From: Demequina sp. B12
GTDB lineage: Bacteria; Actinomycetota; Actinomycetes; Actinomycetales; Demequinaceae
Assembly: GCF_028823635.1 (NCBI RefSeq)
Contig: NZ_JAPEHU010000001.1
Span: 496,001 to 560,000 of the forward strand
Reading direction: 5' to 3'
DNA length: 64,000 bases
Shown here: positions 3,994 through 61,380 of the stretch, piece by piece
How the letters are laid out: the number at the start of each line of letters is the position of its first letter
Position numbering within the stretch: the first letter of the stretch is position 1
Made by a program: the position numbers and the translations under genes
Notes under the pieces: generated by a model
The model's input: only the letters and a program-made list of their open reading frames with translations
What the model was told of the DNA's origin: nothing
The model's database searches: none

Positions 3994-4051
3994 ACGCGCA
4001 TCGGCCCTCACCTCCCGCTCAACTGAGCAGGTAGTGAGGGCCGATGCGCGT
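3994..4051. terminator. bidirectional hairpin with 18-bp perfect arms
   Basis: Arms 3994-4011 and 4034-4051 are perfect reverse complements around a 22-nt loop, between convergent genes ending at 3987 and 4065. Each arm carries the over-represented motif GGGCCGATGCG (or its complement). There is no T-tract, so it is either a non-canonical terminator or a repeat-derived hairpin. Confidence 0.7.
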
Positions 4052-9489: not shown

Positions 9490-9593
9490 GTCGGTTTGAC
9501 ACATATGTGTGTCAGATGAGGAGCCTGGGGCCGATGCGACAGCCACATCCTGCGCGCAGGCCTCAACCGTCACATGGTTGTGTCAAAGCGACT
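9490..9593. repeat. intergenic inverted-repeat element, copy A
   Basis: The left end GTCGGTTTGACACA and right end TTGTGTCAAAGCGAC are nearly perfect inverted repeats, 104 bp end to end. GGGGCCGATG lies 37 nt in from the left end. Internal palindromes (ACACATATGTGT near 9498-9509, CCTGCGCGCAGG near 9549-9560) suggest a folded transcript. It sits between convergent genes. Related copies are at 14505-14667 and 61278-61380. An 18-nt stretch inside it (9521-9538) is repeated just outside at 9603-9620. Confidence 0.75.
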
Positions 9594-14504: not shown

Positions 14505-14667
14505 GTCGGTTTGGCACACGGCTGGGACGGATGGGGCCGATGTGGCGGGTGGGGGGTCGTTTCGCGTCGGTTTGGCACACGGCTGGGACGGATGGGGCCG
14601 ATGTTGCAGGTGGGGATGCACGTGAGCCACACGGTTCACAGCAGCAACAGGTGTGTGTCAAACCGAC
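14505..14667. repeat. intergenic inverted-repeat element, copy B with tandem left half
   Basis: A 61-bp unit begins at 14505 and is repeated at 14566; the first 39 nt of each are identical (GTCGGTTTGGCACACGGCTG onward, including GGGGCCGATG 28 nt in). The right end GTGTCAAACCGAC (14655-14667) is the inverted complement of the left ends. Inside the second unit GTGAGCC/GGTTCAC can pair. Other copies are at 9490 and 61278. It lies between adhP and the SRP RNA. Confidence 0.8.
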
Positions 14668-14770
14668 TGGGCGCAGGCGCGCGGGGCGCGGGGCGCAGGG
14701 CTGCGGCGGGACGATGCGCGAGGAGGGCTACAGATTCAGAGCGCGCGCGAGGGAATGCCAGTGGGCATAG
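14668..14770. other. GC-rich spacer between repeat B and SRP RNA
   Basis: Contains short imperfect GCGCGGGGC iterations near 14679-14700. I see no gene, and no further signal I can support. Confidence 0.4.
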
Positions 14771-14862
14771 AAGGACCCCCCACGCACCCGACAGAGCCCG
14801 CTTACCCTTGCTGCATTCCTGCCCTGGGGGAGTTGGGCGAGGTATCGCCACGTGGGGGGTCA
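14771..14862 (-). ncRNA. ffs: signal recognition particle RNA, small bacterial type
   Basis: On the minus strand the conserved apical helix reads CCAGGGCAGGAATGCAGC followed by AAGGGTAAGCGGG, with a GGAA tetraloop, as in actinobacterial SRP RNA. The ends GACCCCCCACG and CGTGGGGGGTC pair to close the hairpin. A TACACT hexamer at 14874-14869 lies about 7 nt before the probable 5' end. The tetraloop-closing pairs are CA/TG rather than the usual CC/GG, a compensated change. It sits beside tRNA-Ser and near dnaX-recR, as is common. It guides Ffh-bound ribosomes to the membrane. Confidence 0.9.
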
Positions 14863-14946
14863 GCGTCAAGTGTAGCGGCCTTGGCCACAGGGCAAAATCT
14901 GCCCGGTTAGGAGTTCTGCCAATGCTCGGGTAACATTTCTGCGCCT

Positions 14947-34147: not shown

Positions 34148-34180
34148 GGGTGCCTCCCAATGAAAGGAGGGGACGAGACT

Positions 34181-34304
34181 CGACTCCCTACGCCGGAATC
34201 ACCCGGATCAGGTTCGAGGGTCTGCGGCGGTTCCGCACTCTCAGCGCTCTTACTTGCGGCCCGTGCTCACTGGCATCCGGCACGCAAAGCGCTCCCCTGT
34301 CGTG
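34181..34304 (-). promoter_or_regulatory. TPP riboswitch (THI element)
   Basis: On the minus strand the conserved GCTGAGAGTGCGG is followed by CCCTCGAACCTGATCCGGGT and then CCGGCGTAGGGAGTC, which are the two TPP-sensing arms. The 5' side starts near CGACAGGGGAGCGC, whose CTCCC pairs with GGGAG of the 3' end. It controls thiBPQ. The thiB ribosome site GGGAGG, right after it, could be sequestered. Confidence 0.97.
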
Positions 34305-34372
34305 TCCGGTCAGCATAGCGCCCATGCGTGGCGTGGTCTGACAGGGCTTGGTGGTGCCGTGCGGGGTGGGGA

Positions 34373-61277: not shown

Positions 61278-61380
61278 GTCGGTTTGGCACAACCCTGTTG
61301 CTCCTGGGGCCGGTGTGAACCCAGTGACTGTCGCACGTGCCTCATCAGGCGCAGCAGTCACAGGTCTGTGTTAAACCGAC
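61278..61380. repeat. intergenic inverted-repeat element, copy C
   Basis: Left end GTCGGTTTGGCACAA and right end TGTGTTAAACCGAC are inverted repeats 103 bp apart. GGGGCCGGTG lies 28 nt in, the same offset as in copy B. Inside, TGACTG/CAGTCA and GCCT/AGGC pair to give a nested hairpin. Between the glutaredoxin and phosphatase genes. Confidence 0.75.

Follow-up and report, generated by a model that had tools for sequence, protein, structure and literature searches.

Introduction

REPINs are extragenic elements composed of two inverted conserved ends and a variable spacer, where copying is attributed to a domesticated single-copy nuclease whose own gene has repeat-bearing flanks. Excerpts of the two reports on these elements give 69-235 REPINs per E. 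coli genome and describe compensatory changes within them (PMC3116915, PMC8049555). AbiEi antitoxins bind inverted repeats, according to an excerpt of PMC7319586, and in this way regulate the genes that encode them. The Caulobacter endonuclease VsrA (CCNA_02930) is linked, in an excerpt of PMC12907096, to the SOS response in cells lacking cytosine methyltransferase. The string "palindrom" occurs 0 times in the main text of the latter paper, and none of the papers listed in searches of the open-licence literature connects DUF559 or AbiEi-Vsr proteins with palindromic repeats.

Here we describe dispersed palindromes in a 64,000-nucleotide stretch of the Demequina sp. B12 genome (hereafter the window; G000:C10:496001-560000, with G000 denoting this genome). 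The original prediction held that three intergenic loci of the window share conserved ends as an unnamed family, either a folded RNA with compensated middles or a small non-autonomous mobile element.

Results

Palindromes in the window and genome of Demequina sp. B12

Inspection of the forward strand of the window reveals the left word GTCGGTTTGrCACA at 9490, 14505, 14566 and 61278, and its reverse complement at 9579 (one mismatch), 14654 (exact) and 61367 (one mismatch). Across the genome, 9 exact and 6 one-mismatch matches contrast with 0 for a reversed control pattern, so the recurrence of the word is not a matter of chance; when three mismatches are allowed, its count in the window does not exceed that of shuffled sequences (17 versus 13.4).

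The genome contains seven full copies of the palindrome (A-G), each 102-103 bp in length. Copy A (9490-9592, 103 bp) is sited between convergent genes and presents inverted ends GTCGGTTTGACACA and TGTGTCAAAGCGAC around a degenerate 9-bp array. Copy B (14566-14667, 102 bp) has the ends GTCGGTTTGGCACA and TGTGTCAAACCGAC, and is preceded by a partial left-half duplicate (14505-14565) that lacks a right end and is identical to 14566-14626 at 50 of 61 bases. Copy C (61278-61380, 103 bp) has the ends GTCGGTTTGGCACA and TGTGTTAAACCGAC. No strand is assigned to any of these features. Outside the window lie copies D (G000:C10:568878-568980) and E (G000:C10:658851-658953), while copies F (G000:C41:50319-50421) and G (G000:C41:51412-51514) are on another contig. 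A model search of the genome recovers copies A-G on both strands together with one weak match (L402, G000:C41:1238-1334, 33 bits), which has other ends and is possibly decayed or a member of a different end-family.

The three predicted loci with shared ends are thus real, except that the second copy starts at 14566 and the word at 14505 belongs to the partial duplicate. The predicted right end, AAACCGACTGrGC, holds as an inverted end, but its TGrGC tail lies outside the element and is missing in copies D-G. A third word proposed as a signature, GGGGCCGrTG, suits the inner array, yet it is no mark of the family: it occurs all over the window as a generic word (66 matches at one mismatch versus 25.9 expected), and we rejected it on this basis.

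Another word, GGGCCGATG, is over-represented in the window (3999-4046, 9609, 10304 and elsewhere), in places as part of CATCGGCCC...GGGCCGATG hairpins between genes, and looks like a terminator or other extragenic word. Rfam places a bacterial small SRP RNA at 14768-14864 and a TPP riboswitch at 34168-34308, both on the reverse strand, with copy B downstream of the SRP RNA.

A symmetric array of 9-bp sites

The consensus of 59 elements reads as an end (14 bases), N4, three TGTGACNNN, the centre TGNGACNGTCNCA, three NNNGTCACA, N4 and the opposite end. The 59 were taken from a set of 63 dispersed copies, leaving out those with lengths outside 102-104 and the odd copy G026 C6:281297, and the centre comes from the 14-copy alignment behind the covariance model. 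Both arms carry much the same consensus, with no strand preference, and information in the inner part peaks at a period of 9 (between-phase variance 0.22, versus at most 0.15 for the other periods from 5 to 12).

Pairing in the middles had been predicted as well, and each of 16 copies can adopt a hairpin when folded singly (-41 to -84 kcal/mol for the displayed strand). The pairing itself is not conserved, however. Across the 59 copies, the ladder pairs with its own arm at 0.682 and with shuffled partners at 0.674 (119 of 500 shuffles as high), and the spacers do so at 0.471 and 0.466 (213 of 500). The ends are the sole part to exceed shuffles (0.954 versus 0.735), an excess that would be anticipated for a set mixing families with different ends. 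For 14 copies, 73.8 per cent of the whole structure is paired compared with 72.1 per cent in shuffles (32 of 500), where the covariation score stands at 27 of 500 and the RNAalifold covariation term is -0.12. Since the middles lack covariation, compensated RNA stems are not supported; the covariance model serves as a search tool, but pair counts from 14 and 59 copies show no covariation clearly beyond chance, and we rejected the structured-RNA reading. An intrinsic terminator was rejected for want of a U-tract, as TTTT occurs within 12 nt of the element in 0 of 126 flanks. At Rfam 15 gathering thresholds over the whole window, no family matches at the three loci, in agreement with the earlier statement that no named family with this consensus was known.

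These observations are better explained by a symmetric array of 9-bp DNA sites than by an RNA stem. At 10 orthologous pairs of sites in two genomes of the genus (G026 and G030, below), 262 of 280 end positions are identical, compared with 566 of 750 in the middles and 584 of 845 in total for the 40-bp flanks.

Elements and end-families across Demequina

The relatives compared are likewise Demequina, among them D. flava NBRC 105854 (G005), D. litorisediminis (G011), and Demequina sp. NBRC 110051 (G026), NBRC 110055 (G030) and NBRC 110057 (G032). Covariance model R1, built from 14 copies, detects elements in 26 of the 44 Demequina genomes; matches were counted across both strands because the element is nearly palindromic. 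The prediction of an unnamed family with further copies is therefore borne out, and the covariance-model search that had been proposed for the genome and its relatives returned many more copies, whose stems show no covariation clearly beyond chance.

Several end-families share a similar inner design, including GTCGGTTTGrCACA, GTCGGTTTGGCCCA, TACCGCTCAACACA, ACCGGTTCTGCACA, GTCGATTCCCAATG and others, and each of four end-families tested is dispersed in certain genomes. The two ends of the element at G026 C6:212463-212564 differ and give it the look of a GTCGGTTTGGCCCA/TACCGCTCAACACA hybrid; its G030 counterpart is purely of the GTCGGTTTGGCCCA type.

The 63 dispersed copies are over-represented in convergent gaps (24 of 63, versus 23 of 171 among ordinary gaps) and under-represented in divergent ones (11 of 63 versus 53 of 171). 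Three of the 63 fell inside a called gene. The set includes orthologous and gene-bracketing copies and leaves aside four weak model matches (the short hairpin G026 C6:217639-217700, L085:1028-1121, L097:3147-3200 and L084:928-1030). The 171 ordinary gaps are those of at least 150 bp, element-bearing gaps included, as defined by a simple gene caller of our own with some miscalls.

A nuclease gene bracketed by matching palindromes

Outside the window, copies F and G lie at a distance of 1093 bp from each other on either side of an ORF that has hpt and ftsH as its neighbors. The 284 residues scanned identify a DUF559/MTES_1575 endonuclease with a weak AbiEi-like N-terminus, and relatives of this nuclease are present in all 44 Demequina genomes. 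Bracketing was defined as the presence, in both flanks, of an inverted-ended element with matching ends. It was scored for 85 gene-length matches in 83 loci, among the matches listed, with shorter C-terminal-only matches and the broken gene of G011 set apart. With 13-base ends and a score of at most 9, 34 of the 85 nuclease genes are bracketed and 51 lack a matching pair, where mismatched flank pairs give 13 of 1680. With 11-base ends, the corresponding counts are 36 of 85 versus 3 of 497 (score at most 4) and 48 of 85 versus 7 of 497 (score 6). Applied to 276 control genes of 600-1300 nt (drawn from the window, G026 C6 and G030 C4), the test is positive for just two, each of them a nuclease gene.

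The inverted ends of the bracketing copies span 11-14 bp and are gene-specific: about two dozen different words occur among the 34 bracketed loci, yet they match on both sides of each gene. Similarity of ends follows protein identity over these loci (Mantel r 0.585, 0 of 5000 permutations; uncorrected for shared descent). The nuclease gene at ftsH first looked like a coincidence of one locus, a view overturned by the bracketing counts and by other genera. These results show that the nuclease and the palindromes are associated.

Dispersed copies tend to go with the partner gene. At one mismatch or fewer, 11 of 44 genomes contain at least four matches to GACAGTTTGAACCA. One match adjoins a nuclease gene in 8 of the 11 (with matches on both sides of the gene in at least 5), and among the matches listed at this threshold the word lies beside a nuclease gene in 0 of the other 33 genomes. 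In G029, GACAGTTTGAACCA provides one end only, beside a nuclease gene bracketed by another family. For TACCGCTCAACACA, at least four matches occur in 6 of 44 genomes, three of which have it flanking both sides of a nuclease gene, compared with 0 of the other 38 genomes where it lies beside one (at most one mismatch). Orphans also occur: the GTCGGTTTGGCCCA copies of G026 and G030 have no adjoining intact matching nuclease gene, and the GACAGTTTGAACCA copies of G004, G011 and G021 no adjoining intact nuclease gene.

The gene lies beside ftsH in at least 35 of 44 Demequina genomes (35 loci, 35 genomes), which indicates that the place is old, while the end-family found there differs between lineages. 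In the gap upstream of ftsH (L043:5320-6515 in G000:C41; loci L147-L228), palindrome families differ between species. In D. litorisediminis (L084), the gene beside ftsH appears broken into two reading frames and is still flanked by one palindrome and a weak second one. No AbiEii toxin gene adjoins the hpt/ftsH locus of G000 or G005, where the neighbors are hpt and ftsH.

In a set of 248 genomes from the order, which includes some Demequina, 82 contain a nuclease relative at E 1e-15. Matching palindromes bracket 14 of 31 nuclease loci from other genera at a score of at most 4, versus 3 of 930 mismatched pairs, and 17 of the 31 are without a matching pair; L354 was excluded because both of its flanks are the same stretch. 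The word AGCCGCACTTGTGA has 31 matches in G192 versus 4 for the control, several of them paired 62 bases apart, and 9 versus 5 in G165. Counts for CCGTCGTGACCNNNTT are noisy (28 matches versus 22 for the control in G215), yet pairs flank the nuclease genes of G215 (exact) and G048 (near-exact). CCGTCGTGACC occurs too often for counting, and forms pairs around the nuclease genes of both genomes and at two other places of G215. The palindromes flanking L369 (G061) are 116-117 bp long and, unlike the other pairs listed, almost identical throughout, possibly through recent duplication.

Domain structure of the nuclease

Pfam searches of 16 members of the protein family identify AbiEi_4 in all 16 and MTES_1575 in 15 (E at most 0.01). 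The structure predicted for the D. flava protein (pLDDT 90.7) has two halves. Residues 1-176 of this model are similar to the AbiEi antitoxin 6y8q (Z 10.6, rmsd 3.8, 169 aligned), and residues 177-279 to 3hrl (Z 12.8), the homing endonuclease I-Bth0305I (3r3p, Z 11.9) and Vsr (1cw0, Z 10.3). Six residues are invariant across the 16 members: E181, D208, D220, H225, D234 and R237. The protein is thus predicted to join an AbiEi-like half to a Vsr/homing-endonuclease half with conserved acidic and histidine residues. PADLOC assigns AbiEi models to most members and, in a few cases, weak matches to HEase, Hhe and PDC-S37, and NCBIfam returned no match for the one protein tried. With AbiEi_4 and MTES_1575/DUF559 domains and a Vsr-like fold, the partner is not a Y1-HUH tyrosine transposase.

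Site occupancy and movement

The mobile-element half of the original prediction is the better one in light of the matching copies that bracket an endonuclease gene, although movement itself was not seen. Among the elements of G026 C6 without a counterpart in G030, none presents a precise empty/filled site; two are located within replaced DNA, and for one a decayed remnant is present. An element occupies site C in G000 and D. flava (G005:C3:875864-875966), and none is seen there in the seven other Demequina genomes compared. Site A is filled only in G000 among nine genomes, where 260 bases beside the matched gene were read in each of the other eight. The flanks of both sites are too diverged between genomes to give an exact junction, and strain-level insertion events were not seen because each species is represented by one genome. 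A stretch of ~25 kb that is unmatched in G030 (G026 C6:91942-116789) ends beside the element at 116680-116782.

Inspection of 63 copies reveals no fixed adjacent target repeat. Short repeats near the ends are weakly over-represented: those of 4 nt number 8 of 63 versus 3.5 in shuffles (9 of 300 as high), and those of 5 nt number 3 of 63 versus 1.0 (24 of 300). Of the copies in Demequina sp. B12, five of seven have no target duplication, while in A and G a 5-nt repeat lies 1-2 nt away from an end. That many copies are old and were inherited vertically makes present activity doubtful.

Spread by phages or plasmids was also considered and rejected: the phage collection has no relative of one nuclease (L161), plasmids give 2 weak matches to it, and viral contigs hold no exact match to two end patterns.

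Discussion

We favor, at a probability of roughly 0.55, a reading in which an AbiEi-Vsr-type endonuclease has a palindromic repeat of its own and the elements are solo copies of that repeat, a system similar to REPIN/RAYT but with a Vsr-type enzyme. From the association described above, we infer that the nuclease recognizes and copies its palindromes. The AbiEi-like half may read the ends and/or the 9-bp array as DNA, whereupon the nuclease would nick or cut at the palindrome. Host repair or single-strand processing could then, at a low rate, place a copy of the palindrome at a further intergenic position, in the manner of RAYT and REPINs. Copies would subsequently be inherited vertically and stay recognizable as continuing targets (or operators) of the protein. 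Counting against this reading are the lack of a precise empty/filled site, the nuclease genes without a matching pair (51 of 85 in the genus, 17 of 31 outside it), the orphan families and the age of many copies.

The main rival to this reading, which we consider unlikely, is that the palindromes serve the AbiEi-like half as binding arrays, for repression of the nuclease gene and as marks at dispersed sites, and are not copied by the nuclease. The resemblance of the N-terminal half to AbiEi is what such an operator would call for, a symmetric 9-bp array that lacks pair covariation looks like a protein-binding array, and the ends are better conserved than the flanks at the 10 orthologous sites. 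Against this, bracketed genes have a second copy downstream (by design of the test), for which an operator has no need, and the preference of dispersed copies for convergent over divergent gaps is the opposite of that expected for a promoter regulon.

Less probable again is a homing cassette, in which palindrome, nuclease and palindrome constitute one selfish unit and solo palindromes are recombination scars comparable to solo LTRs. Two copies do bracket the gene, the nuclease half has a predicted homing-endonuclease fold, and one pair outside the genus (L369) is almost identical. A gene that keeps its place beside ftsH in so many genomes does not resemble a widely hopping cassette, however; the middles of copies F and G differ, which is unexpected for a recent direct repeat; and solo copies outnumber matching bracketed genes in the families counted. 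That the elements are long hairpin terminators or structured RNAs is very improbable: the folded copies can all form hairpins and sit in gaps between genes, often convergent ones, but the missing covariation, U-tracts, strand preference and Rfam matches speak against it, and it leaves the bracketing of one gene family unexplained.

The REPIN/RAYT-like reading can be extended, at slightly less than even odds, to a widespread actinobacterial class in which a fused AbiEi-Vsr endonuclease recognizes, maintains and copies its own palindromes of ~60-120 bp. Such a class would have an origin separate from that of REPIN/RAYT, and its recognition ends would switch from lineage to lineage at a conserved site beside ftsH. 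If this is right, nucleases came to be combined with dispersed palindromes on at least two occasions, through unrelated enzymes, and the question of why bacteria keep REPIN-like populations becomes testable in a second, independent system. It would also provide a first proposed target for proteins annotated only as DUF559 or AbiEi-like. That is to say, the palindrome pair around a gene would predict the recognition sequence of its product, such that some two dozen protein-site pairs in Demequina would be directly testable.

Comparison with known systems

Several described systems share individual features with the one presented here. Caulobacter VsrA is likewise a DUF559/PD-(D/E)XK Vsr-like endonuclease, as an excerpt of PMC12907096 describes it. 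The modeled catalytic domain resembles I-Bth0305I in fold and in its conserved E/D/H residues, but the nuclease half in Demequina is fused to an AbiEi-like half and bracketed by palindromes, and the homing nature of the protein is putative. The N-terminal half has the predicted fold of AbiEi from the AbiE type IV toxin-antitoxin system, whose antitoxin reads inverted repeats; in contrast to AbiE, the hpt/ftsH locus has no AbiEii gene and the C-terminus is a nuclease. TIRtrons, as outlined in an excerpt of PMC3733652, present a gene between inverted repeats, and these repeats also make up dispersed families of moderate abundance, but their TIRYT protein is an HUH tyrosine transposase of the IS200/IS605 group.

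The closest parallel in design is REPIN/RAYT (the REPtron), to judge from the excerpts cited above. Both systems consist of palindromes scattered through intergenic DNA, whose inverted ends are conserved and whose variable spacer is of near-fixed length; both also have a partner nuclease gene that is flanked by the same repeat (for a subset of loci here, within and beyond the genus), more than one end-type per genome and a vertically inherited partner. The differences lie in the parts themselves. RAYT is a Y1-HUH tyrosine transposase, whereas the partner here is an AbiEi-Vsr-type endonuclease; Demequina ends have no GTAG tag; the inner part resembles an array of protein sites where REPINs show compensatory changes; and copy numbers are tens or fewer, against the 69-235 reported per E. 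coli genome. With a similar design and an unrelated enzyme, the Demequina system is not a member of REPIN/RAYT.
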